Source: a virus. Taken from it: a stretch of 27,498 nt of DNA. The notes below the pieces were generated by a model. It was not told the DNA's origin. It made no database searches and was given only the letters and a program-made list of their open reading frames with translations. Below are positions 2,521 through 27,424 of this stretch, piece after piece; positions within the stretch are counted from its first letter, which is position 1, and every line of letters starts with the position of its first letter. Position numbers and translations under genes: made by a program. Where the stretch lies: positions 1 through 27,498 of IMG/VR virus record IMGVR_UViG_3300042309_000833; one strand, 5' to 3'.

Positions 2521-3289
2521 ATCTTCTCAATTCCTCTTCAGTAAAACCATATTGTATTATGTCAGAAATTTTCAATTTATTAGAAGCGATCATTGAAGTG
2601 TGTATATATCTTATCGGAGCCTGGTGTTCACCAGCAATAATATTATCATTTCTTATCGGAACTCTGATAATTTCTTGTATGTATTTAGGGAATAATTTGT
2701 GTTCTAATGGAGGGTTATTGGTTGAGATAGAATCCCATGCATCTTTAAATAATAGCATATTTTCATAATTCATTATGAAATGGAAATCGCCTCGATAATC
2801 TTGATAATTGTTTAGTGTTATGCAATTAACATCATATTCAGAAAGAATAACATTTTTCCATATTAGAATATCTGGTCGATAAAGGATAACGAGATCGTAA
2901 CTAATTCCTTGAGTCTTAACCCATTCGTCTATCAATTCACAACCTAGCTTTATTGATAACGAATGTGATGCGATGGCAAAGGAATTGTGATTGACTCTAG
3001 ATTGTTCTAATTTAGATATTATGATTTCTTTGTATAAATTGTTATCTTCGAACTTATATGCAACTGGTTTGTATAAACTTGTTAAATTTTCTTGTATGTC
3101 TGGATTCCATGAATGTATAAAGAAATCGAATTTATAGTCTGAATTCGGTTCTATGAAATGTTTGACAATAGAATTATATGCTGCGACATAATTAATGTAT
3201 TCGCCTTCTCTATATAATTGTCCAGGTAAATCGAATTTACCTGTGACTTTAGATACAGCACCTTTAATTAGAAAAGCTACTCGTTTCAT
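2504..3289 (-). CDS. Putative glycosyltransferase-like protein
   Basis: 261 residues. The N-terminus MKRVAFLIKGAVSK followed by FDFFIHSWNPD (about 54-64) is the pattern of a Rossmann-like start with a short H-S-W loop seen in uncharacterised glycan-cluster transferases. LVILYRPDILIWKNV (about 133-147) supplies a possible metal-site aspartate. RGDFHFIMNYENMLLFKDAW follows. It overlaps the cupin gene by 4 bases (ATGA) and the next gene by 17. No signal peptide or membrane helix is visible, so it is cytoplasmic. A sugar transferase role fits the operon but no family was recognised with certainty. Confidence 0.5.
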   Translation of the reverse strand: MKRVAFLIKGAVSKVTGKFDLPGQLYREGEYINYVAAYNSIVKHFIEPNSDYKFDFFIHSWNPDIQENLTSLYKPVAYKFEDNNLYKEIIISKLEQSRVNHNSFAIASHSLSIKLGCELIDEWVKTQGISYDLVILYRPDILIWKNVILSEYDVNCITLNNYQDYRGDFHFIMNYENMLLFKDAWDSISTNNPPLEHKLFPKYIQEIIRVPIRNDNIIAGEHQAPIRYIHTSMIASNKLKISDIIQYGFTEEELRRYVNIY

Positions 3290-10561: not shown

Positions 10562-11326
10562 TTATCCAATAAATAGATCCAACGGTAATTGTAAATCTTT
10601 AGTGAGTCTTGTTTCTAATTTTTCTATTTCAGTTATAGCTTCTGAATATATTGCATCACCATTAATTGTTATACCGCCTGGCAAATTCATATTTCCAAAT
10701 TTCTTAAGATTCTCGCCCCATTGTCTTTTAATTAGAGCTGTAGCATATTCCTTAAGAAATTCGTCAGCCCAAATATCGTTAAAAGTATTGATATCTAATT
10801 TCTTGTAAATTTTCAAAACAATATTGGATGTTTTCTCTTTTAATAAAGAGAGCGGTTCGTTGAATCTAATTCTATTTGTTTTTCTATTAAAGTTAAAAGA
10901 ATTTAATGGTGATAATGACATCTGCATAGTAGCAAGATACGACTTCATAGAATCTAAATAAGCTAAATTATTTCCTATAATATTTGATGTATTATAGAAA
11001 TCGTTCATATAGAACTGATATTGTGCATTAAATAGATCGCCACTACCAACTCCTGTAGAAACGTCATTACCGACAGGAAGTGCAGATATTACAGAAAATA
11101 CTTTTTCATCTAGAGTAATATATCCATTAGTTACATCCGTATTAGTTATAGGAACAATAAGATAATCTTCTTCAACGCCATCAAAATGATAATCAAAATA
11201 TTTCGTTATGGCATCATCGATTCTATCATCAACTTGTTCTTCTGCAACATTTATTTCTATTACAGGAAAACCTAGTCTTCTTAAACAGTAATCGGAAAAT
11301 TGTTCTCTAGTTGTTGGCGTTGCCAT
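10562..11326 (-). CDS. 13: gp13 neck protein
   Basis: 254 residues (T4 gp13 is 309). The N-terminus TPTTREQFSDYCLRRLGFP followed by EEQVDDRIDDAITKYFDYHF is strongly conserved in T4-like gp13, the neck protein that joins the portal to gp14 and the tail. AGGAG sits 7 bases before the ATG, and a TATAAATA late box lies 15 bases ahead of the start codon. First gene of the 13-14-15 block, which is on the opposite strand from gp16-19. Confidence 0.87.
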   Translation of the reverse strand: MATPTTREQFSDYCLRRLGFPVIEINVAEEQVDDRIDDAITKYFDYHFDGVEEDYLIVPITNTDVTNGYITLDEKVFSVISALPVGNDVSTGVGSGDLFNAQYQFYMNDFYNTSNIIGNNLAYLDSMKSYLATMQMSLSPLNSFNFNRKTNRIRFNEPLSLLKEKTSNIVLKIYKKLDINTFNDIWADEFLKEYATALIKRQWGENLKKFGNMNLPGGITINGDAIYSEAITEIEKLETRLTKDLQLPLDLFIG

Positions 11327-11341
11327 TACATACTCCTATCT

Positions 11342-11349
11342 TATTTATA
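11342..11349 (-). promoter_or_regulatory. T4-type late promoter for gp13
   Basis: TATAAATA on the minus strand exactly matches the T4 late promoter box recognised by the phage late sigma factor gp55. It lies between the hairpin terminator and the gp13 start, so transcription would begin just upstream of the AGGAG ribosome site. This exact match also supports T4-like late control in this phage. Confidence 0.75.
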
Positions 11350-11359
11350 TAAATAAAGA

Positions 11360-11380
11360 GGGAACTCTTAAAGAGTTCCC
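11360..11380 (-). terminator. Hairpin terminator between the 11403-11759 gene and gp13
   Basis: GGGAACTC-TTAAA-GAGTTCCC gives a perfect 8-bp stem with 5-base loop. Read on the minus strand it is followed by TCTTTATTTATA, a broken U-rich tract, so it would end the transcript of the small upstream gene. The gp13 late promoter starts right after it, separating the two units. Confidence 0.7.
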
Positions 11381-11402
11381 TAAGAAATATGAACTTATAA
11401 AT

Positions 11403-11856: not shown

Positions 11857-12270
11857 TTGATTAGAAATATAATAATTTCTATTGCTTTTTGCACGCTTGT
11901 TTTTAGCTATGATACAAGCAATAGAAATGTAAACTGTATGACACAAGCAATTTATCACGAAGCAAGAGGAGAATCTTATATGGGGAAAATTGCAGTCGGA
12001 CATATAATTCTAAACAGAATAAAAAAAGGATATGGAACGGATCCTTGTGAAATAGTTTCTAGTAAGAGACAATTTTCTTGGTATGGAAAAAACAATTCCA
12101 TCAAAGAACGAGATAGATGGGATGAATGTTATAGATTATCAAAAAAGATTCTTGCAAATGAAACTCAAGATCCAACCAAAGGATCTATATTCTTTCATGA
12201 GAAGAGTATCAACCCAGGTTGGAAATATAAGAGAATAGTAGTCATCGATAGTCATATATTCTATAAGTAA
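11857..12270 (+). CDS. SleB-type cell-wall hydrolase with signal peptide
   Basis: 137 residues. It starts at TTG; AGGAG 6 bases upstream supports this over any ATG. The first 17 residues, IRNIIISIAFCTLVFS after the start, form a positively charged then hydrophobic segment that looks like a signal peptide or signal-anchor. The rest is a Hydrolase_2/SleB domain: MTQAIYHEARGES with catalytic E35, GKIAVGHIILNRIKKG, RQFSWYG (71-77) and IFFHEK. These enzymes cut peptidoglycan glycan strands, so it probably serves lysis from the periplasm as a secreted endolysin. No holin is visible next to it. Confidence 0.82.
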   Translation: MIRNIIISIAFCTLVFSYDTSNRNVNCMTQAIYHEARGESYMGKIAVGHIILNRIKKGYGTDPCEIVSSKRQFSWYGKNNSIKERDRWDECYRLSKKILANETQDPTKGSIFFHEKSINPGWKYKRIVVIDSHIFYK

Positions 12271-12389
12271 TATACTTAAAATCGCTACATACTAAGTATA
12301 GCGTAGAAAGTCAAGTTCGTCAAGTGAGATGATGTTGAATCTCAAAAAATCATATTGATGAATCATATGTTATATAGTATAATAGTTAT
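12271..12389. other. Gap before primase with two weak hairpins
   Basis: An interrupted hairpin CGCT..AGCG around ATAC/GTAT lies at 12283-12303, and TGAGAT/ATCTCA with an 8-base loop at 12325-12344, followed by AAAAAA rather than a U-run. Neither is a convincing terminator on the plus strand. The rest of the gap is the primase promoter. No open frame or RNA gene is seen. Confidence 0.4.
12355..12383 (+). promoter_or_regulatory. Sigma70-type promoter of the primase gene
   Basis: TTGATG (12355-12360), 17-base spacer, TATAAT (12378-12383). Transcription would start near 12390, the first base of the ATG itself, so the mRNA would be leaderless. This promoter probably serves the primase-nuclease-thyX-nrd unit as an early or middle gene set. 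Confidence 0.65.
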
Positions 12390-13406
12390 ATGAGTATATT
12401 GGTTGATTCAAAATATCTTTCGTTGATATCTCCTAAATTAGACTTATTTAAGAAGAAGTCTGAAGTCTTATGGAATTTTAGATGTCCATATTGTATGGAT
12501 TCGAAGAAGAGAGAATCAAAGGCGAGAGGTTATGTCTACAGGAAACACAACGACCTCTTTTTTAAGTGTCATAATTGTGTGAAAGGCACAACGTTCTCTA
12601 ATTTCCTTAAATTCTTAGACCCTGTTTTACATAAACAATATATATTCGAGAGATTCACATCAGGAGATACTCATCCAAATCATAATTACAAGAAACCAAT
12701 CCTAGTTTCTTCTGATGCAAAAAACAAATTTCAGAAAAAAATCATAAATTATGATATCGGTTTGGAATCTATAAAGGATCTTCAAGACGGACATTACGCA
12801 AAAGAATATATTAGATCAAGAGAAATACCATCTGAGCATTGGAATAAATTGTTTTTTACAAACGACTTTAAACAATATGTCGAATCTATTAATAAAGAAA
12901 AATCTAAGAACTTAAAACCAAAAGATCCAAGGATTGTGATTCCTTTCTTTGATAAAACTGGTAAATTGATAGCAGTTCAAGGTCGTGCATTGGAAGACAG
13001 TATCGCAAGATATATTACAATTAAATTACACGAAGATAATGATAAAATATATGGTTTAGAACGTATAAATACAAATACAACTTTATGGATATTTGAAGGT
13101 CCAATTGATTCGTTATTTGTGAAAAATGCTCTGGCTACAGCTGGAGCTGAATTATCAAAATTAATAAAAGATTATCCTAAAGCAATATTCGTTTTTGATA
13201 ATGAACCATCAAATAAACAGATTATTCAAAATATGAATTTTGTAATAGATTCTGGATGTAAAATTGTAATTTGGAAAAAAGAAAACAAATGTAAAGATGT
13301 CAATGATATGGTTCTTGCAGGTTTAGATATTGATTCAGAATTAACAGAATCGTCTTATTCGGGGTTAGAAGCATTATTTAAATTTAATATTTGGAAGAAG
13401 GTGTGA
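12390..13406 (+). CDS. 61: gp61-type DNA primase
   Basis: 338 residues (T4 gp61 is 342). The zinc-binding N-domain has C32-x2-C35 and C60-x2-C63 around the conserved KARGYVYRKHNDLFFKCHNC. The TOPRIM part carries WIFEGPIDSLF (E236, D240) and IFVFDNEPSN (D270, E272), the catalytic metal site for RNA primer synthesis. It acts with a gp41-type helicase at the phage replication fork; no helicase gene is in the window. No ribosome site precedes the ATG, and the promoter -10 box ends only 6 bases before it. The downstream nuclease gene follows after 1 base. Confidence 0.88.
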   Translation: MSILVDSKYLSLISPKLDLFKKKSEVLWNFRCPYCMDSKKRESKARGYVYRKHNDLFFKCHNCVKGTTFSNFLKFLDPVLHKQYIFERFTSGDTHPNHNYKKPILVSSDAKNKFQKKIINYDIGLESIKDLQDGHYAKEYIRSREIPSEHWNKLFFTNDFKQYVESINKEKSKNLKPKDPRIVIPFFDKTGKLIAVQGRALEDSIARYITIKLHEDNDKIYGLERINTNTTLWIFEGPIDSLFVKNALATAGAELSKLIKDYPKAIFVFDNEPSNKQIIQNMNFVIDSGCKIVIWKKENKCKDVNDMVLAGLDIDSELTESSYSGLEALFKFNIWKKV

Positions 13407-13407
13407 C

Positions 13408-13776
13408 ATGTATACTTACAGTGCTAAGATTTTAAGAGTTATAGATGGCGATACAATTGAATCTGAAATTGATTTGGGGTTTGGAGTAAGTATTCGAAAG
13501 ATTGTTAGATTGAATGGAATCGATACTCCAGAAAAAAATTCAAGGATCGTATCGGAACGTGAATTGGCTGTAAAGGCGACAGCTAGAACTAAATATGCTT
13601 TAGAAAATAAAACAATAATTTTGAAAACGCAGTTAGATAAAGATGATAAATATGGGCGTGTCTTGGCTTATGTTTATGTGTCTGAGAAAGATGTTGAATC
13701 TAACCAATCGTTTAATATTAAGTTAATTCAAGAAGGATTAGCTTTTCCATATTCTGGAGGAAAGAAGAATGTATAA
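13408..13776 (+). CDS. SNase-like (thermonuclease-fold) nuclease
   Basis: 122 residues, a minimal SNase domain. VIDGDTI (11-17), VRLNGIDTPE (33-42) and DKYGRVLAYV (80-89) place the catalytic R34, E42 and R84 and the Ca2+-binding D14 and D39 as in staphylococcal nuclease. No signal peptide is present, so it probably works inside the cell, perhaps degrading host DNA to feed nucleotide synthesis. It overlaps thyX by 8 bases, with its GGAGG serving as the thyX ribosome site. Family firm, biological role inferred from neighbours. Confidence 0.85.
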   Translation: MYTYSAKILRVIDGDTIESEIDLGFGVSIRKIVRLNGIDTPEKNSRIVSERELAVKATARTKYALENKTIILKTQLDKDDKYGRVLAYVYVSEKDVESNQSFNIKLIQEGLAFPYSGGKKNV

Positions 13777-14452
13777 GAAATATGAAGATATTCTTTCCGT
13801 TAAATTGATTTCCTACACACAACCAAATCCAGAAGAATTTTCACAAGGATTTATTGATGATGGTATTCAAAATTTAATCTCTTATTGTGCCAGAGTTTCT
13901 AATCCCTCAAACCAAAACAATCTAGATACAGTCGATAAGCTACTTAATTATCTAATTAAGAATAAACATTGGTCTCCATTTGAGATGGTTGATGTTTGTC
14001 TTGAGATTACAAGCACCAGAGATATTGTACGTCAGATTCTAAGACATCGTTCTTTTTCATTCCAGGAATTTTCACAAAGATATGCAGATCCAACAAAAGA
14101 ATTAGATTTCTGTCTAAAGGAATGTAGACTTCAAGATACAAAGAATAGACAGAATTCAATTCTAATTAATAATGATGAATTGGCTGAGATTTGGAAACAG
14201 TTACAAATACAAGTAATTGATATTGCTAAAGCTAATTATGAAAATGCAATTTCACAAGGTATTGCTAAGGAAGTAGCAAGAGTTATGCTACCGGAAGGTA
14301 ATACAGTTTCAAGAATGTACATTAAAGGTTCTATTCGTTCCTGGATTCATTACATTGAAGTTCGTGATGGTAATGGTACACAGAAAGAACACCAATTAGT
14401 TGCACGTGCTTGTGCCGAAGCCATAAATAAAATTTTCCCTTATATTAAGTAG
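13769..14452 (+). CDS. thyX: Flavin-dependent thymidylate synthase ThyX
   Basis: 227 residues, normal for the family. The ThyX signature RHR-x7-S is present at R92-H93-R94 and S102 (RHRSFSFQEFSQRY). HWSPFEMVDVCLEI (67-80) and EVARVMLPEGNTVSRMYIKGSIRSWIHY supply the dUMP/FAD-binding region. It converts dUMP to dTMP with methylene-tetrahydrofolate and FAD, bypassing host ThyA. Lies between the nuclease (8-base overlap) and nrdA (8-base gap after AGGAG), making a nucleotide-supply module. The high AT content of the phage genome fits a need for dTMP. Confidence 0.93.
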   Translation: MYKKYEDILSVKLISYTQPNPEEFSQGFIDDGIQNLISYCARVSNPSNQNNLDTVDKLLNYLIKNKHWSPFEMVDVCLEITSTRDIVRQILRHRSFSFQEFSQRYADPTKELDFCLKECRLQDTKNRQNSILINNDELAEIWKQLQIQVIDIAKANYENAISQGIAKEVARVMLPEGNTVSRMYIKGSIRSWIHYIEVRDGNGTQKEHQLVARACAEAINKIFPYIK

Positions 14453-14460
14453 GAGTTTAG

Positions 14461-16239
14461 ATGTCAGAATATCTAGGTATTAATATTGACCGTTCAAGAG
14501 ATTCTCTCTTTGATGAATTAGGTTTGAAGAGATTACAGGAATCGTATATGAGAGAAGAGGAAATCTCTCCACAAGAAAGATATGCATTCGTTGCAAAGAC
14601 TTTCGGTTCTAATCCAGAACACGCACAAAGATTATATGATTATGCATCTAAACATTGGTTGAGTTTTTCTACACCAATTCTTTCTTATGGTAGAACAAAG
14701 AAAGGATTGCCAATTTCGTGTTATCTTGCCCATATACATGACTCAGCAGAAGGTTTAATTGATACTCTAGCTGAAACTAATTGGTTATCTATGTTGGGTG
14801 GTGGAGTTGGTTTGGGTGTAGGAATGAGATCTTCTAGCGAAAAGTCTACTGGTGTTATGGCACATATGAAAACTTATGATGCCTGTTCTCTAGCATACAG
14901 ACAAGGAACAACTAGACGTGGATCATATGCTGCTTATCTTGATATCTCACATCCTGATATCATTAACTTCATGGAGATGAGAAAACCGACTGGCGATCCA
15001 AATATTCGCTGTCTTAATATGCATAATGCTGTTATGATCCCAGATTCTTTCATGCAAATTATTGAACGATGTATGATTGATCCGAATGCAGATGATTCCT
15101 GGAATCTTATCGATCCGTCTTCAAAGGAAATTAAAGAAACGGTTTCAGCAAAGTATCTCTGGCAGTTACTTTTGGAATTGAGAATGATGACTGGTGAACC
15201 TTATCTGATGTTCATTGATACTGCAAATAATGCTCTACCAAGAGAACAATATGATAAAGGTCTAAGGATAAGACAATCGAATATATGTTCAGAGATCCAT
15301 TTGTGTACGGATAAAGATCGAACAGCAGTATGTTGTTTATCGTCAATTAATATTTACAGATATGATGAGTTTAAGGATTATTTTGAACAGATTATTTCTG
15401 ATGTTGCTGAGATGTTAGATAATGTCTTAACTAGATTTATTAATGATGCCCCAAAAACAATTAAAAGAGCAAAATATAGTGCGATGATGGAGAGAGCAAT
15501 TGGGATTGGAGTTTTGGGATATCATTCATATCTGCAATCTAAATCTATCCCATTTGAATCAGTCGCAGCTAAGATCTTTAATAAAACTTTCTTTAAGACA
15601 ATGAAAGAATATGCCGATGCAGCCAATCTAAGATTAGGAAAAGAACGTGGTGAGGCTCCGGATATGGTTGGTTCAGGAAAGAGATTTTCAAATTGCATTG
15701 CAATTGCACCAACTGCTTCCACATCCATCATCATGGGTAACATAAGTCCTTCTATCGAACCTCTTAGAGCAAATGTATTCAGACAAGATACTCTGTCTGG
15801 TTCTTTTATTCACAGAAATCATGAACTAGAAAAAGTTCTTCTCAAAAAGAATGTTGATATGGAAGAAATCTGGAATTCAATAGTATTGAATGACGGATCA
15901 GTTCAACATCTAACTTGTCTGACAGATGATGAGAAGGAAGTGTTCAAGACAGCAATTGAAATCGATCAACGTTGGATTATTGAAAAAGCTGGTGATAGAC
16001 AGAAATATATTGATCAAGGACAATCTGTCAATCTATTCTTCAAACCAGATACACACGTAAAATATCTTCATGCGATTCATTTCTTAGGATGGAAAGTTGG
16101 TTTGAAAGCATTATATTATTGTAGATCAGAAAAGATTAGAAAAGCCAATAAGATCTCACAGAGAATCGATAGAAAGAGAATTGAAGATATTGATATCAAA
16201 TCAATAGTCGAAGGAGAAGGGTGTATTGCTTGTGAATGA
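14461..16239 (+). CDS. nrdA: Class I ribonucleotide reductase large subunit NrdA
   Basis: 592 residues against about 760 in E. coli or T4; it lacks the N-terminal ATP-cone. Active-site cysteines are in place: C87 in PISCYLA, thiyl C276 in SNICSE (with N274 and E278), and the partner Cys at CCLSSINI (291-292). IAPTASTSII is the phosphate-binding loop. The tail ends CIACE, the redox shuttle pair C588/C591. It reduces ribonucleoside diphosphates to deoxy forms with NrdB. AGGAG precedes the ATG by 6 bases. Without the ATP-cone it would escape normal dATP feedback, useful during phage replication. Confidence 0.93.
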   Translation: MSEYLGINIDRSRDSLFDELGLKRLQESYMREEEISPQERYAFVAKTFGSNPEHAQRLYDYASKHWLSFSTPILSYGRTKKGLPISCYLAHIHDSAEGLIDTLAETNWLSMLGGGVGLGVGMRSSSEKSTGVMAHMKTYDACSLAYRQGTTRRGSYAAYLDISHPDIINFMEMRKPTGDPNIRCLNMHNAVMIPDSFMQIIERCMIDPNADDSWNLIDPSSKEIKETVSAKYLWQLLLELRMMTGEPYLMFIDTANNALPREQYDKGLRIRQSNICSEIHLCTDKDRTAVCCLSSINIYRYDEFKDYFEQIISDVAEMLDNVLTRFINDAPKTIKRAKYSAMMERAIGIGVLGYHSYLQSKSIPFESVAAKIFNKTFFKTMKEYADAANLRLGKERGEAPDMVGSGKRFSNCIAIAPTASTSIIMGNISPSIEPLRANVFRQDTLSGSFIHRNHELEKVLLKKNVDMEEIWNSIVLNDGSVQHLTCLTDDEKEVFKTAIEIDQRWIIEKAGDRQKYIDQGQSVNLFFKPDTHVKYLHAIHFLGWKVGLKALYYCRSEKIRKANKISQRIDRKRIEDIDIKSIVEGEGCIACE

Positions 16240-16513
16240 ACCAAATTTTATTGAGGAAATGATTCATCACTTCATTTCTTATCAATCTAAAAAATATAAG
16301 TTAGATATGATGGTCCATGAAATATTTGAACACGATCCAGAAAATTTTGATTTTGATGACGATATAGAATTTGATTGGTTTAATAAATCAATTACATTAG
16401 ATCTAAAAGGAAATTATCCAAAAGAAAAGTTTAAACCTTTGTTTGATCTTGGGATATCTATAATCATAATAAGAAAACATTTACTCGAAAGTATAACTCT
16501 AGTTCAGGAATAA
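16226..16513 (+). CDS. Small acidic unknown protein between nrdA and nrdB
   Basis: About 93-95 residues; not recognised. The frame can start at TTG 16226 (9 bases after AAGGAG) or GTG 16232; both overlap the end of nrdA and no ATG fits. The protein has an acidic middle (HDPENFDFDDDIEFDWF) and a hydrophobic LGISIIIIRKHLL stretch near the end that is too short and charged at its edge to be a sure membrane helix. It ends 1 base before nrdB. Its conserved position suggests a role linked to ribonucleotide reductase, but nothing in the sequence shows it. Confidence 0.6.
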   Translation: MLVNEPNFIEEMIHHFISYQSKKYKLDMMVHEIFEHDPENFDFDDDIEFDWFNKSITLDLKGNYPKEKFKPLFDLGISIIIIRKHLLESITLVQE

Positions 16514-16514
16514 T

Positions 16515-17492
16515 ATGTCAAAGAAAAAGAATCAATTGCAATTGACTGATAAAAGATCTACATTCAAACCAATGAATTATCCTTGGTGTTTTGACGCCTG
16601 GAGAACACATGAACAAATGCATTGGTTGTGGACTGAAGTAGAAATGATGCAAGATATTAAAGATTGGAAGGAAAAGTTGTCTACTTCAGAAAAGACTTTC
16701 TTAACACATATCTTTCGTTTCTTTACACAAGGAGATATTGACGTCTCAGATGGATATGTCACAAATTATCTACCATTTTTTCCACAACCAGAAGTTCGAA
16801 TGATGTTACTTGGTTTCGCTGCTCGTGAAGCAATTCACGTTGCCGCTTATTCTCATCTTGTTGAGACTCTTGGTCTACCAGAAACAACTTATAATGAATT
16901 CTTAGAATATACTTCTATGAAAGAGAAGCACGAATATATCTTCTCACATAAGGGCGATGATATCAGAAGTATTGCTAAGAATATTGCAGTATTTTCTGCT
17001 TTTACAGAAGGAATGCAATTATTCTCTTCATTCGTTATGTTGCTTAATTTTGCAAGACACGGAAAGATGAAAGGAATGGGTATGATTATCCAATGGTCTC
17101 TGTTGGATGAAGATATGCATTCTGAATCAATGATTCGATTATTCAGAACTTTTATCGAAGAGAATAGAGAGATTTGGGACGATGAGTTGAAATCAGAAAT
17201 CTATACCATCGCAACTAAAATGGTAGAATTAGAAGATCAATTTATTGATCTGGCATTTAGTATGGGTCCGATGGAGAATCTTACTCCCGAAGAAGTTAAG
17301 AAATATATTCGCTATATTGCAGATAAGAGATTAATCTCGATGGGTATGAAAGGAATCTTTAAAGTTAAGAAGAATCCTCTAACTTGGGTCGATGCGATGG
17401 TTGGAGTCGGTCACACAAGTTTCTTTGAGAATCGTTCTACAGATTATGCGAAGGGTGCTCTGACTGGATCTTGGGAAGATGTTTGGAAATGA
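16515..17492 (+). CDS. nrdB: Class I ribonucleotide reductase small subunit NrdB
   Basis: 325 residues. The diiron ligands appear with E. coli spacing: D74 (QGDIDV), E105 and H108 (REAIHVAAY), E165 (FTEGMQ), E199 and H202 (DEDMHSE). Y112, seven residues after E105, is the radical tyrosine, so this is a normal class Ia-like protein rather than a radical-lacking variant. It generates the radical used by NrdA. The stop overlaps the next gene as ATGA. Confidence 0.93.
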   Translation: MSKKKNQLQLTDKRSTFKPMNYPWCFDAWRTHEQMHWLWTEVEMMQDIKDWKEKLSTSEKTFLTHIFRFFTQGDIDVSDGYVTNYLPFFPQPEVRMMLLGFAAREAIHVAAYSHLVETLGLPETTYNEFLEYTSMKEKHEYIFSHKGDDIRSIAKNIAVFSAFTEGMQLFSSFVMLLNFARHGKMKGMGMIIQWSLLDEDMHSESMIRLFRTFIEENREIWDDELKSEIYTIATKMVELEDQFIDLAFSMGPMENLTPEEVKKYIRYIADKRLISMGMKGIFKVKKNPLTWVDAMVGVGHTSFFENRSTDYAKGALTGSWEDVWK

Positions 17493-17779
17493 CAATTGAA
17501 GAATTGATGCAATGGAACGAACAACTAGCAGATGAGATAACAGGTTCGGCTCTATATTATGGTAACAATACTGCGGAAGATTTTCGAAAGATTATCCTGA
17601 AAATTATTAATCAATCGACTCAACGTGGATATTCTCTCGCCAAAATAGAATCTTTCACAGAAGAACGTTGCTGGTGTCTATCTGCAGAATACGAAGATCA
17701 TCCTTATAATCCTAATAAAAAAGTTGGAGAAATATGTGAAGTTTGTGGAAACTTAGTTGAGTCTGAATGGTATTTGTAG
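17489..17779 (+). CDS. Small unknown protein with Cys pairs, coupled to nrdB
   Basis: 96 residues. The start is the ATG at 17489 overlapping the nrdB stop (ATGA), not an in-frame ATG 18 bases earlier. The N-terminal part is helical (IEELMQWNEQLADEITG, then FRKIILKIINQ); the C-terminal part has CWC and CEVCG, which could bind zinc or be redox active. In many related phages a glutaredoxin follows nrdB, but no thioredoxin C-x-x-C motif of that type is present here. It may be a zinc-bearing accessory factor. Function unknown. Confidence 0.65.
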   Translation: MTIEELMQWNEQLADEITGSALYYGNNTAEDFRKIILKIINQSTQRGYSLAKIESFTEERCWCLSAEYEDHPYNPNKKVGEICEVCGNLVESEWYL

Positions 17780-17791
17780 TAACACAATAAA

Positions 17792-17819
17792 TAATGGATA
17801 ATGCCTACATTATCCATTA
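17792..17819 (+). repeat. Perfect hairpin covering a start codon
   Basis: TAATGGATAATG-CCTA-CATTATCCATTA is a 12-bp perfect stem with a 4-base loop. The ATG of the next gene (17801-17803) closes the loop side of the left arm. No Shine-Dalgarno site precedes that ATG. An AATAAATA late-like box (17786-17793) runs into the stem. The hairpin may end the nrd transcript or hide the start codon from ribosomes on read-through mRNA. Confidence 0.6.
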
Positions 17820-18433
17820 ATATTCCACTACAATATTGTCTGTTAAGAAAAGAATATCTCTATAATTTAGAAGATCGTTTTGGTGAATTTATTCCTTGCT
17901 CTGTGTTTGGTGTTACTTCAATACCAGCCAGAGCAATCACTTTTTCATGCATGATTAATAATGGTGCACAAGTAGCCAGATTACCTATTTCTGCATTCTG
18001 TTGGAAAGAGACCGAACCACAACCACTTGAAGTTCTAGAACTTTGGGATTGTTTCTCATACGATCTAACTTGTGTAGAATATGATTATCTTCGTGGAATG
18101 AGAGCATCTGCTTTCCTAAAAGATAAGTCTTGGTATGAAGGTGAATATTGTTTTACTCTAGATTGGTACGGCTCACCGACAGCAGAAAATCCAGGAGAAG
18201 GTGGATTTAAGACTGCTCACATCTTGAAGTTAGATAATGGTAATTTTGCTGCACAACCAAATAACAGAATCTGTTGGTTCGAACCATCATTTATTACGAA
18301 ACCATATATAGATTGCGAAACAAAACCAGATTATAAAGTAAATGAACATATTTGGAAATGTGAAGGACGATCGAAATGGTATACAGAAGATTCTGATAAA
18401 TACTTTTACGATATAGTAAGAGGAAAAGATTAA
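17801..18433 (+). CDS. Conserved phage protein of unknown function
   Basis: 210 residues, no signal peptide or membrane helix. MPTLSINIPLQYCLLRKEYL, SIPARAITFSCMINNGAQ, LELWDCFSY and NGNFAAQPNNRICWFEPSF are strongly patterned segments that look conserved in T4-like phages of aquatic bacteria, but I cannot name a function. It is rich in Trp and Cys. The start codon lies inside a hairpin with no ribosome site, and the stop abuts the next gene's ATG directly. Placement before fibre and structural genes suggests a virion-related or late role. Confidence 0.7.
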   Translation: MPTLSINIPLQYCLLRKEYLYNLEDRFGEFIPCSVFGVTSIPARAITFSCMINNGAQVARLPISAFCWKETEPQPLEVLELWDCFSYDLTCVEYDYLRGMRASAFLKDKSWYEGEYCFTLDWYGSPTAENPGEGGFKTAHILKLDNGNFAAQPNNRICWFEPSFITKPYIDCETKPDYKVNEHIWKCEGRSKWYTEDSDKYFYDIVRGKD

Positions 18434-22993
<4,560 letters not shown>

Positions 22994-22994
<1 letters not shown>

Positions 22995-23047
22995 TGGCTA
23001 TCACATACGATTGGATCTTCAACCCCTTTGATTCAAGGATCGACTAG
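22994..23047 (+). pseudogene. 17-codon remnant of a donor copy of the 23118-23447 gene
   Basis: ATG overlaps the fibre stop (TAATG) and reads MAITYDWIFNPFDSRID then TAG. The first residues resemble the intact gene just downstream (MAINFTWQFSNFKVKP), including M-A-I, W at 7 and F at 9. It looks like the 5' end of the same gene from another phage, carried in with the fibre tip and cut at the exchange point. Confidence 0.65.
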
Positions 23048-23114
23048 ATGGATCAAAGAACTTTCTGAACAAAATAAACAGTTATTATAAGAGATAAATA
23101 CATTAAAAGGGTAA
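23046..23114 (+). pseudogene. Remnant of an older fibre C-terminus (S74 coiled coil)
   Basis: In one frame the bases read RWIKELSEQNKQLL, a TAA at 23088-23090, then EINTLKG and TAA. This is the kind of terminal coiled coil that ends S74 fibres (compare [16 protein letters not shown] in the present gene), with one in-frame stop. It has no start codon and is AT-rich like the rest of the phage. It is best explained as the left-over 3' end of the fibre gene replaced by the present one. Confidence 0.65.
23093..23100 (+). promoter_or_regulatory. Possible late promoter for the terminase unit
   Basis: GATAAATA, one base off the T4 late box, lies 17 bases before the ATG of the 23118-23447 gene, similar to the 15-base distance at gp13. 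It falls inside the fibre remnant, so the match may be chance. Confidence 0.35.
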
Positions 23115-23117
23115 TAT

Positions 23118-23447
23118 ATGGCAATTAATTTTACGTGGCAATTCAGCAACTTCAAAGTCAAACCAAGTTTGGATGAACTAGAAGATGTATTGGTTTCCTA
23201 TGAATGGCGAAGAGGAGCAAAAGATGGAGAGTATTTTATAGATTGTTATGGTTTATTATCTCTATCAGATCCTGACCAAGATTCTTTTAAAGATTATGAA
23301 ACTTTAACAAAAGATGATATAATTAACTGGACTATTTCCAAATTAACACAAGAAACTGTTGATAATTATGATTTAAGTTTGGTGTCTCAGATTGAAAATT
23401 TGAAGAATCCGCCATTAATAACCAAACCCGTTCCTTGGAGCGAATAA
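23118..23447 (+). CDS. Small conserved phage protein upstream of terminase
   Basis: 109 residues. MAINFTWQFSNFKVKPSLDE then YEWRRGAKDGEYFIDCYGLLSL and a Pro-rich end (NPPLITKPVPW) are the pattern of a small protein found in T4-like phages of aquatic bacteria, often in several copies near fibre genes. Function unknown. AAAAGGG lies 6 bases upstream of the ATG. One base separates it from gp16. A 17-codon fragment of a second copy lies just upstream. Confidence 0.7.
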   Translation: MAINFTWQFSNFKVKPSLDELEDVLVSYEWRRGAKDGEYFIDCYGLLSLSDPDQDSFKDYETLTKDDIINWTISKLTQETVDNYDLSLVSQIENLKNPPLITKPVPWSE

Positions 23448-23448
23448 A

Positions 23449-23835
23449 ATGATCGATGATAAATTGAATGAAATCTTCGATATAGAGTCTACACCAAATC
23501 AATCAGATATCATTAAAAACGTCCCACCAGTACGAGAAGATATTGATGAAGATATTGAAGCAGCAAAAAAGATACATCGTGATCTAATGGAAAAATCACA
23601 AGATGCTTTAGATAATCTGATTGAATTTGCAAAAGCATCTGAATCACCACGTGCATATGAAGTTGTTGCCAATCTTATTAAGACGACTTCAGAAGTTGCA
23701 AAAACACTAGTAGAAATCAAGAATAAAGAAACAAAAGCTAAACCAGAAATTCAGAATAATACACAGAATAATCTTTTCGTCGGTTCAACTGCAGAATTAC
23801 AGAAGTTCTTGAAAGGACAAAAAGAAGATGTTTAA
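23449..23835 (+). CDS. 16: gp16 small terminase subunit
   Basis: 128 residues (T4 gp16 is 164). Helical and acidic, with EDIEAAKKIHRDLMEKSQDALDNLIEFAK (about 35-63) followed by ESPRAYEVVANLIKTTSEVAKTLVEI, the conserved central oligomerisation helices of T4-like gp16. It forms rings that help recognise phage DNA and stimulate gp17. The stop overlaps the gp17 start by 8 bases, the usual gp16-gp17 coupling. GGAG lies 7 bases before the ATG. Confidence 0.82.
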   Translation: MIDDKLNEIFDIESTPNQSDIIKNVPPVREDIDEDIEAAKKIHRDLMEKSQDALDNLIEFAKASESPRAYEVVANLIKTTSEVAKTLVEIKNKETKAKPEIQNNTQNNLFVGSTAELQKFLKGQKEDV

Positions 23836-25417
23836 TACAGGTGATAAGAATTATTATCTAAATCCACAAATAAAAAGATCTGGATTATCGGAAGAATACA
23901 CCACAGAACAGATTCAAGAGTATGTTAAATGTTCACAGGATCCAATATACTTTATAGAAAATTATGTAGAGATTAATTCTCTTGATAGAGGATTCGTGAA
24001 ATTCAAAACACGTGGTTATCAACAAGATCTAATAGAAAAATACCATAAAAATAAAAAGAATATTGTACTTTCAAGTAGACAGAGTGGAAAAACGATTACT
24101 ACTGCATCATTCATTCTTTGGTATATATTCTTTAATCCTGATAAGAATGTTGCAATTCTAGCAAATAAAGCTGCAGTAGCAAGAGAAATTCTAGCAAGAA
24201 TAGTTGCTTCTTTCGAACGAATACCATTCTTCTTACAACCTGGTGTTAAAATTCTAAATAAAGGTTCTGTAGAATTGGGTAATTCTTCTAGAATAATTGC
24301 ATCTGCAACTTCAGCATCCGCAATTCGTGGTTTTTCAGTTTCGTTACTTTATCTAGATGAATTTGGTTTCGTAGATAATGCGGAAGAATTCTTTAGATCA
24401 GTTATTCCAACAATTTCATCGGGCGAAACAACAAAAGTTATTATTTCATCTACACCAAATGGGTTGAATCTTTTCCATAAATTGTGGAAAGATGCTATAG
24501 ATGGAAATAATGATTATGTACCGACAGAGATAACTTGGGATCAAGTTCCAGGAAGAGACGAATCTTGGAAGAATCTACAAATTGCGCAACTCGGAGAACA
24601 TGGATTTAGACAAGAATTCGGAAATGAATTTCTTGGATCTTCGAATACTCTAATTTCTGGATATAAATTGCAATCTCTAACTTGGGAAAAACCAAAATTA
24701 GATTCTGATTCTTTAATTATTTTGGAAGAACCTATTCAAAATCATAATTATGTAATTTCAGTAGATTCTTCTAGAGGAGTCGAAAATGATTATTCAGTTG
24801 CAATTGTTATCGATACAACACAAATTCCATATAAAATAGTTGCAAGATTTAAAGATAATACAACTAGACCAATACTTCTACCGAATATCATTGTTGATTT
24901 GGCAAAGAAATATAATATGGCATTTTTGTTAATAGAAAGAAATACAGTAGGACAAACAGTTGCAGAATCCTGTTATTGGGATTTAGAATATGAAAATATA
25001 TTCACAACTATTCCAGGAAAATCTGGACAAGAATTACGATCATCATTTTCAAAATCAAATAAAATCGGTGTTGAAATGACTTCACAAGTGAAAAGATTGG
25101 GTACTTCTATTCTAAAAACGCTTGTTGAAGAAGATAAGTTAATTAATTATACAGAAGATATTGTTAATGAATTATATTCATTTATTAATAAACATGGTTC
25201 TTGGGGTGGAGAAGCAGGAAAACATGATGATCTTGTTATGTCTTTAGTGTTGTTTTCTTGGGCGACAAACCAATCTTTCTTTAAAGAAATAACAAATTCT
25301 GATTTAAGAAAATCGTTTTTCGATTCACAGGAAGAATCTGTAGAAGAAATCTATTCTTTTGCTGGAATTACTACTGGATCTGAAGAAGAAACTGCAGATA
25401 ATTCTTGGTTAATTTAG
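23828..25417 (+). CDS. 17: gp17 large terminase (ATPase-nuclease)
   Basis: 529 residues (T4 gp17 is 610). Walker A SRQSGKT (83-89), Walker B LLYLDE (173-178) with catalytic E178, and coupling motif SSTP (207-210) form the packaging ATPase. The C-terminal RNaseH-fold nuclease has D313 in VDSSRG, E370 in LLIERN, and Asp in KHDDLVM near 465. It cuts concatemers and pumps DNA through the portal. It starts 8 bases inside gp16 and is followed by a late promoter and gp18. No interrupting intron or intein is present. Confidence 0.94.
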   Translation: MFNTGDKNYYLNPQIKRSGLSEEYTTEQIQEYVKCSQDPIYFIENYVEINSLDRGFVKFKTRGYQQDLIEKYHKNKKNIVLSSRQSGKTITTASFILWYIFFNPDKNVAILANKAAVAREILARIVASFERIPFFLQPGVKILNKGSVELGNSSRIIASATSASAIRGFSVSLLYLDEFGFVDNAEEFFRSVIPTISSGETTKVIISSTPNGLNLFHKLWKDAIDGNNDYVPTEITWDQVPGRDESWKNLQIAQLGEHGFRQEFGNEFLGSSNTLISGYKLQSLTWEKPKLDSDSLIILEEPIQNHNYVISVDSSRGVENDYSVAIVIDTTQIPYKIVARFKDNTTRPILLPNIIVDLAKKYNMAFLLIERNTVGQTVAESCYWDLEYENIFTTIPGKSGQELRSSFSKSNKIGVEMTSQVKRLGTSILKTLVEEDKLINYTEDIVNELYSFINKHGSWGGEAGKHDDLVMSLVLFSWATNQSFFKEITNSDLRKSFFDSQEESVEEIYSFAGITTGSEEETADNSWLI

Positions 25418-25430
25418 AAAACCCTTTTTT

Positions 25431-25438
25431 TATAAATA
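25431..25438 (+). promoter_or_regulatory. T4-type late promoter for the tail sheath gene
   Basis: TATAAATA, an exact T4 late box, sits 54 bases before the gp18 ATG, in the gap after gp17. A strong AAGGAG ribosome site lies 7 bases before that ATG. A separate late promoter suits the high demand for sheath protein. Confidence 0.75.
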
Positions 25439-25492
25439 TAACTAGAAATATATATTCGAAAGAATAAAAACCTCTCAACAAGGAGAAAAATA

Positions 25493-27424
25493 ATGGCTTT
25501 TCAGCTTAGTCCAGGCGTAAATGTTTCTGAAATCGATTTAACAACTACGGTTCCTGCAGTTGCAACTTCAATTGGAGCAATTGCTGGCGCTTTCCAATGG
25601 GGCCCAGTTTTAGAAATAAGAACAATTTCTTCAGAAATTGAATTAATAGATACTTTCTTTAAACCAAATAACACTGTTGCAGATACTTTCTTTTCTGCAG
25701 CAAATTTCTTACAATATTCTAATGCTCTAAGAGTTGTTAGAAATGTTGGTACTGATGCTAGAAATGCAACAAATGGCGCTTCTGGTATTTCCGGATTGAC
25801 TATTGCAAATGCTGGTGTGTCAAATAATATGGCACCAGGAACTTTTGCATTATCATTTACTGGAGCAGGTTCTGGTGCTGCTGGTACTGCAACTATATCT
25901 TATGGTGCAACAGGAGCAATTGTTTCTGCAGTAACTCTGACAAATGCAGGATCAGGATATACTTCTGCTCCAACAGTTGGTATTACAGGTGCTACAGGAT
26001 TTACTACAAATTTCTCTATCACATCATCAACTGCAAATACTTTAATTATTAAGAATGAAACTGATTATCAACAAAATTATATTTCTGGTTCAGCTTCAGC
26101 TGCTGGTACTTGGACTGCAAAGTATCCAGGAATCTTAGGAAATTCTCTGAAAGTTTCAATTTGCGACTCTCAAACTTTTTCCAGTTGGACATATAAGAAT
26201 GCATTTACAGTAACACCAGGAACTTCTGATTATGTATCTACTCGTGGTGGTTCTAATGACGAATTGCATGTTATTGTTATTGACGAAGATGGTGCGTTTA
26301 CTGGAACGCCAGGAACAGTATTAGAAAAATATGCTTTCTTATCAAAAGCTTCTGATGCTAAGACTGAATCCGGAGAAACTAATTATTATGCAAATGTAAT
26401 CAATACCAAGTCACAATATATCTGGTGGACTAATCACCCTTCAGTTGGTGTTGATTGGGGTTCTGCCTCAACTGGTATTGCATTCGATCTATCCGGTCCT
26501 CTAACTGCTTCATTATCTGCAGGAGTTGATGCAAATACATTAACTAATGGCGAAATCCAAGCTGGTTATGATCTATTTGCCGATCCAGAAACTATTGACG
26601 TAAATCTAATTATTGGTGGATCTTCAAATACTACTGTCGGAACTTATCTAGTCCAATCTATTGCAGAAAATAGAAAGGATGCTATTGTGTTCTTATCACC
26701 AGCCAAATCAGATGTTGTAGATAATAAAGGACAAGAAGTAACTGACATAACAACAACCAAAAATGCACTACAATTGTCATCATCTTATGCTGTTGTTGAT
26801 TCTGGTTGGAAGTATCAATACGATAAGTACAATGATGTATTCCGCTGGGTTCCTCTAAATGCAGATATTGCTGGTCTATGTGCTAGAACCGATCAAACTA
26901 ACGATCCATGGTTCTCGCCAGCTGGATTTAACAGAGGAAATATCAAAAACGTTGTGAAGTTGGCATTCAATCCAGATAAGGCTGATAGAGATGATCTATA
27001 TAAGATCGGCGTCAATCCTGTGGTAACTTTCCCAGGACAAGGCACTATCTTATATGGAGATAAGACTCTTCTTTCTAAGCCTTCTGCTTTCGATAGAATC
27101 AATGTTCGTAGATTATTCATTGTTCTTGAAAAGGCAATTGCAACTGCTTCTAAATTCTCTCTATTTGAATTGAACGACGAATTTACTAGAGCACAATTTA
27201 TTGGATTAGTTGAACCTTATCTACGAGATGTGCAAGGTAGAAGAGGAATTATCGATTTCAAGGTTGTGTGTGACGAAACCAATAATACTCCTCAAGTAAT
27301 TGATTCTAATTCATTCGTTGGTGATATCTATATTAAGCCAGCAAGATCTATCAATTTCATTCAATTGAATTTCGTAGCTGTCAGAACTGGCGTGGAATTT
27401 TCTGAGATTGTTGGACAATTCTAA
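25493..27424 (+). CDS. 18: gp18 contractile tail sheath protein
   Basis: 643 residues (T4 gp18 is 659). The N-terminus FQLSPGVNVSEIDLTTTVPA and AIAGAFQWGPV, and the C-terminal RRLFIVLEKAIATASKFSLFE with FVGDIYIKPARSINFIQLNFVAV, are hallmarks of T4-like sheath. Residues about 90-185 are a Gly/Ser/Thr-rich insert with VTLTNAGSGYTSAPTVGITG, a beta module seen in other phage surface proteins, while the conserved chain resumes at LIIKNETDYQQNY. The insert would probably sit on the sheath exterior. It follows gp17 with its own late promoter and ends at a strong hairpin. Confidence 0.92.
   Translation: MAFQLSPGVNVSEIDLTTTVPAVATSIGAIAGAFQWGPVLEIRTISSEIELIDTFFKPNNTVADTFFSAANFLQYSNALRVVRNVGTDARNATNGASGISGLTIANAGVSNNMAPGTFALSFTGAGSGAAGTATISYGATGAIVSAVTLTNAGSGYTSAPTVGITGATGFTTNFSITSSTANTLIIKNETDYQQNYISGSASAAGTWTAKYPGILGNSLKVSICDSQTFSSWTYKNAFTVTPGTSDYVSTRGGSNDELHVIVIDEDGAFTGTPGTVLEKYAFLSKASDAKTESGETNYYANVINTKSQYIWWTNHPSVGVDWGSASTGIAFDLSGPLTASLSAGVDANTLTNGEIQAGYDLFADPETIDVNLIIGGSSNTTVGTYLVQSIAENRKDAIVFLSPAKSDVVDNKGQEVTDITTTKNALQLSSSYAVVDSGWKYQYDKYNDVFRWVPLNADIAGLCARTDQTNDPWFSPAGFNRGNIKNVVKLAFNPDKADRDDLYKIGVNPVVTFPGQGTILYGDKTLLSKPSAFDRINVRRLFIVLEKAIATASKFSLFELNDEFTRAQFIGLVEPYLRDVQGRRGIIDFKVVCDETNNTPQVIDSNSFVGDIYIKPARSINFIQLNFVAVRTGVEFSEIVGQF

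Follow-up and report, generated by a model that had tools for sequence, protein, structure and literature searches.

A start-codon hairpin overlapping a T4-type late promoter box suggests an early-mask, late-unmask switch in an uncultured freshwater T4-like phage group

Introduction

How is a gene translated when its start codon lies inside a perfect hairpin and no ribosome-binding site precedes it? This question is raised by the gene at 17801–18433 in a 27.5-kb uncultured virus record, analysed here over its full 27,498 nucleotides (the window), which carries T4-like genes for tail sheath, a T4-type terminase, neck proteins, primase, nrdA, nrdB and thyX. A sequence-only reading of the window had proposed that the start codon would be masked on mRNA reading through from nrdB and free on a late transcript beginning near 17800, making a simple early/late translation switch.

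The mechanism itself is already known from T4, in which genes e, soc, 49 and I-TevI use early-mask, late-unmask control (PMC3014915). T4 late promoters consist of an 8-bp box at −13 to −6, with A at −13 as a common variant (PMC2988020), and the corresponding cyanophage late box is NATAAATA (PMC2984593).

Results

The gene in question (17801–18433, plus strand) encodes a 210-amino-acid protein of PHROG 3704. It follows nrdB, which encodes the small subunit of ribonucleotide reductase (16515–17492, plus strand) and is the presumed source of read-through RNA, and it lies directly before a virion structural gene (PHROG 1645; 18434–19783, plus strand), which has its own Shine–Dalgarno sequence, and a tail-fibre gene. 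The nrdA–nrdB pair is upstream on the same strand, with one small open reading frame (orf102; 17489–17779, plus strand) between nrdB and the PHROG 3704 gene, its stop 12 nt before the hairpin stem. Between nrdB and the PHROG 3704 gene, the plus strand showed no terminator-like site.

Members of PHROG 3704 occur in many cyanophages, in SAR11 phages and in others, and database entries for the cyanophage proteins call them 'PurM' or 'ferredoxin'. The window protein has no match in Pfam or NCBIfam and no conserved cysteine cluster; its predicted fold is β-rich (pLDDT 82), with no convincing relative in the PDB (TM about 0.2). The 'ferredoxin' label traces only to the name given to PHROG 3704, and both names appear unfounded. 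In the S-TIM5 group (L174, L046, L048–L055 and L057), the roughly 35 nt around the ATG of the homologue hold a conserved hairpin, CTCGTAGTTA...TAACTATGAG, that encloses this start codon and, with the T run after it, resembles a terminator placed across the start; its loop varies, and one G–U pair becomes A–U in L049.

The window hairpin is a perfect 12-bp stem, TAATGGATAATG-CCTA-CATTATCCATTA (17792–17819), just as the sequence-only reading had described it. Its 5′ arm (17792–17803, plus strand) takes in the start codon (17801–17803) as well as the last part of the late box, and pairs across a 4-nt CCTA loop (17804–17807, plus strand) with a 3′ arm (17808–17819, plus strand) lying within codons 3–7 of the gene. 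The stem has only three G–C pairs. It is the sole perfect inverted repeat of at least 12 bp with a 3–10-nt loop in the window; first-order Markov simulations give an expected number of 0.033 per window, with any such repeat present in 2 of 60 simulations. Among the 31 gene starts in the window, that at 17801 has the lowest 60-nt folding energy, and within this 60-nt stretch the AUG is predicted to be 1% unpaired. The predicted stability of the stem is −13.4 kcal/mol, with pair probabilities of 0.87–1.00 in a 300-nt context. The reported lack of a ribosome site also held: no Shine–Dalgarno-like sequence lies upstream of 17801, a feature that precedes many other genes of the window. A short overlapping frame of 8 codons at 17794 was dismissed, being not conserved in the sister lineage described below (lineage B).

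A T4-type late promoter box, AATAAATA (17786–17793, plus strand), overlaps the 5′ arm, in agreement with the earlier claim of a late-like box running into the stem. It stands seven nucleotides from the ATG and has A at −13, a listed T4 variant. By T4 geometry (PMC2988020) and the local sequence, late transcription is predicted to start at 17799–17800 on the plus strand, 1–2 nt before the ATG, so that the late RNA of this gene would be nearly leaderless. A start at around 17799 would remove 7 of the 12 bases of the 5′ arm, leaving UAAUG. Once truncated there, the start region is calculated to need 1.2 rather than 7.8 kcal/mol to open; in lineage B, the corresponding figures are 1.7 and 8.7 kcal/mol. 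The freeing of the ATG by a late start near 17800, as proposed earlier, would not be complete: the late RNA predicted here could still form a 5-bp remnant, UAAUG/CAUUA, over the AUG, with a stability of about −1 kcal/mol at 37 °C. TAAATA is not enriched across the window (47 found, 52 expected), and enrichment was dropped as evidence for promoters, the 60-nt upstream regions holding only 9 in sense against 5 in antisense. We identified no gp55 gene in the window.

These features suggest a mechanism that we consider probable, in which the hairpin is a mask on nrd read-through RNA, and initiation from the late promoter embedded in it lifts that mask. On RNA reading in from the nrdA–nrdB operon, the start codon would be buried in the 12-bp stem of about −13 kcal/mol, and ribosomes should not start at 17801. 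Late in infection, phage-modified RNA polymerase would start at the box overlapping the 5′ arm, giving an RNA that begins 1–2 nt before the ATG with most of that arm gone and that would be translated almost without a leader. With the promoter embedded in the hairpin, escape from the mask should be limited to late transcripts. We infer from this arrangement that the late box is used, where exactly the late RNA begins, that RNA reads through from nrdB and that translation differs between the two RNAs.

The arms can be followed in the close relatives, around ten contigs that fall into four lineages on an only partly resolved tree: A (the window, L082 and L093–L096), B (L098, L010 and L170), C (L097) and D (L099 and L100). 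A late TAAATA box ends 6–7 nt before the ATG of the gene in all four, and no Shine–Dalgarno sequence is visible before the homologue start in B, C or D. The stem is kept in lineage A, in which an A-to-G change in L095 preserves its pair as G–U. Lineage B is a sister of the window lineage (83% DNA identity) and has the same geometry of box and arm, TATAAATA-N7-ATG. Its hairpin, AATATTGATTGAT/ATCAATCAATATT, is a perfect 13-bp stem over the ATG that differs from that of A in both arms and is shifted by 3 nt. The native arms pair with −13.4 kcal/mol in A and −12.9 kcal/mol in B, but arms cross-paired between the lineages give only −3.0 and −6.4 kcal/mol, indicating that the two arms changed together between A and B. 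The helix thus shows compensatory conservation in one sister lineage.

We compared these hairpins with a null model in which the late box, the ATG and the protein were fixed while the spacer and synonymous codons were redrawn 3,000 times. None of the 3,000 draws reached the energy of the window hairpin. As the window locus was chosen for its hairpin, the fair test is lineage B, which was not so chosen; there, 0, 1 and 3 of 3,000 draws were as stable in the three near-identical members. Lineages C and D retain the box but have no strong hairpin, with 3,000 and 789 of 3,000 draws, respectively, being as stable as the native sequence. The check named in the sequence-only reading, conservation of both arms in relatives, is passed by A and, in compensated form, by B; the hairpin is absent from C and D. 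The position of nrdB does not explain where the hairpin occurs: the homologue in lineage C still lies downstream of nrdB, with four small open reading frames between.

Could two AT-rich regions simply pair by chance, with no selected function? The AT-rich region, the choice of the window locus for its hairpin and the absence of the hairpin from C and D would all fit, but we think this unlikely, given that the stability seen in lineage B arises in about 0.1% or fewer of the null draws and that both arms changed together between A and B. With the hairpin present in A and B but not in C and D, the spacing from box to ATG is the more constant feature. Across 132 open reading frames in nine related contigs, this gene alone recurs with a box 6–7 nt before its start. 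Other late boxes in these contigs are mostly at least 15 nt upstream, often with a Shine–Dalgarno sequence between; one further close box, at 3289 on the minus strand of the window, is inside the upstream gene, after GGAG.

A second explanation, which we rate just as low, is translational coupling: ribosomes finishing the upstream gene would melt the hairpin and restart at 17801, tying expression to the neighbouring gene rather than to late timing. The upstream stop is indeed exactly 21 nt before the ATG in both A and B (10–12 nt before the stem), even though the upstream gene is orf102 in A and nrdB in B. However, there is no Shine–Dalgarno sequence for re-initiation, a ribosome at the upstream stop would reach only the base of the stem, and coupling leaves unexplained why the late box is fixed 6–7 nt before the ATG in four lineages.

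It is more doubtful still that the hairpin terminates transcription, either of the minus strand or of nrd read-through. Read on the minus strand, it does score as a terminator-like stem with TTTATTGTGT behind it, and in L175 and the S-TIM5 group the ATG of the homologue coincides with, or closely follows, a terminator-like hairpin. Against this, the plus strand has no T tract after the stem, the T run seen on the minus strand is the late box in complement, and the stem is poor in G–C pairs; moreover, the accepted genes from 11857 to 27424 all lie on the plus strand. Least probable of all is a DNA palindrome serving as a repressor operator, for although the perfect inverted repeat overlaps the promoter box, A and B differ in repeat sequence, centre (4 versus 9 nt) and register while keeping self-pairing, and the L095 change preserves an RNA wobble pair while breaking DNA symmetry.

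We scanned opening energies, with the same truncation at the predicted late start, for all 79 pairs of late box and gene in T4, S-PM2, HTVC008M, the window and L098. T4 gene e came top, followed by 49 and I-TevII in that order, and segB was not far below; these four are documented or implicated cases of mask control (PMC3014915), so the scan serves as a positive control. The window gene ranked 13th and its lineage B counterpart 12th, ranks to be read with caution, as the start region counted for these two is shorter, there being almost no leader.

Several other hairpins and boxes were noticed in these contigs. Lineage B has an HNH endonuclease gene at its nrdA locus (L098 1–919; L087 around 1206–2108), next to an intein-like C-terminal end, and a late box and a strong predicted hairpin cover its start region, as in T4 homing endonucleases. 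In the window, an 11-bp perfect inverted repeat at 11341–11381 is followed by a minus-strand T-rich tract and then by TATAAATA, 15 nt before the neck-protein gene at 11326, which looks like a terminator beside a late promoter. The 15-mer TAAATAATGGATAAT recurs in part of lineage A before a small open reading frame upstream of nrdA (L088 9048–9062, minus strand; L086 around 1876), and no matching 3′ arm was seen.

Late boxes close to start codons also occur in SAR11 phages. T4 and S-PM2 have no boxes 5–8 nt before a start, compared with 36 and 42, respectively, at 9–60 nt. By contrast, HTVC008M (KC465899; L207–L209) and Mosig EXVC030M (MT647606) have 14 and 7 boxes 5–8 nt before starts, of which 11 and 6 are at exactly 5 nt. 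Counted against the annotated starts of HTVC008M, 12 boxes are at exactly 5 nt, including those of baseplate, tape-measure and gp2-like genes. A Shine–Dalgarno sequence is missing from 14 of the 16 HTVC008M genes with a box at 5–8 nt, against 83 of 181 others. By T4 geometry, late RNAs from these start-proximal boxes in HTVC008M and Mosig would start at the A of the ATG, that is, they would be leaderless. Start-codon hairpins are not a general trait of these genes, as HTVC008M genes with start-proximal late boxes showed no significant difference from other genes. At one HTVC008M locus, the start codons of two divergent late genes (18916, minus strand; 18943, plus strand) lie only 26 nt apart. 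Both genes have a late box 5 nt upstream of the ATG, and their promoters overlap as a result.

Discussion

Our best reading of the locus is that it would be an early-mask, late-unmask switch of the type of T4 genes e and 49, in a variant without a ribosome-binding site. As in that type, the start is predicted to be sequestered in a stable helix, and the late box is placed so that the late RNA would lose the 5′ strand of the helix, which is kept in A and compensated in B, and absent from C and D. Unlike the late RNA of that type, the one predicted here would offer no usable Shine–Dalgarno sequence, which is why we class the locus as a variant. The switch put forward from sequence is partly supported: its geometry is strengthened by the compensation in B, the fixed spacing and the T4 control, and the proposal is weakened by C and D, which have the promoter without the hairpin, and by the weak 5-bp remnant expected on the late RNA.

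A broader proposition, which we regard as evenly balanced, is that some T4-like phages make leaderless late mRNAs from a gp55-type box 5–7 nt before the start, and that the hairpin of this freshwater group silences one such gene on early read-through RNA, so that its translation would require the leaderless late form. Late-promoter prediction has been reported to fail in pelagimyophages (PMC7029224); boxes placed only 5 nt from the ATG in SAR11 T4-like phages could account for that failed search. We came across no earlier report of boxes 5 nt before an ATG in the open-access literature searched, although such silence speaks only weakly for novelty. Were the late RNA leaderless, a single promoter position would set both the time of transcription and which RNA is translatable. 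The reading would also extend a classic T4 timing device, used by lysozyme and homing endonuclease genes, to an uncultured freshwater group of T4-like phages and to a gene that lacks a ribosome-binding site.

Among the closest parallels is T4 gene e, in which RNA initiated upstream likewise folds a helix over the start, a late TATAAATA promoter lies in the 5′ strand of that helix and the late RNA lacks this strand. Gene e, however, hides a Shine–Dalgarno sequence together with the start codon, whereas the PHROG 3704 gene has none to hide; and the late RNA of e has a normal leader, its boxes lying 13 and 26 nt before the ATG, compared with the 1–2-nt leader predicted here. The start region is similarly sequestered on upstream transcripts in T4 segB and I-TevII and in mobE of Aeromonas phage Aeh1 (PMC3014915), but those masks control selfish endonuclease genes, and the PHROG 3704 gene is neither a lysis nor a homing gene. 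With HTVC008M and Mosig it shares a late box near enough to the ATG for a nearly leaderless late RNA, at a spacing of 6–7 nt in the freshwater group and 5 nt in the SAR11 phages.
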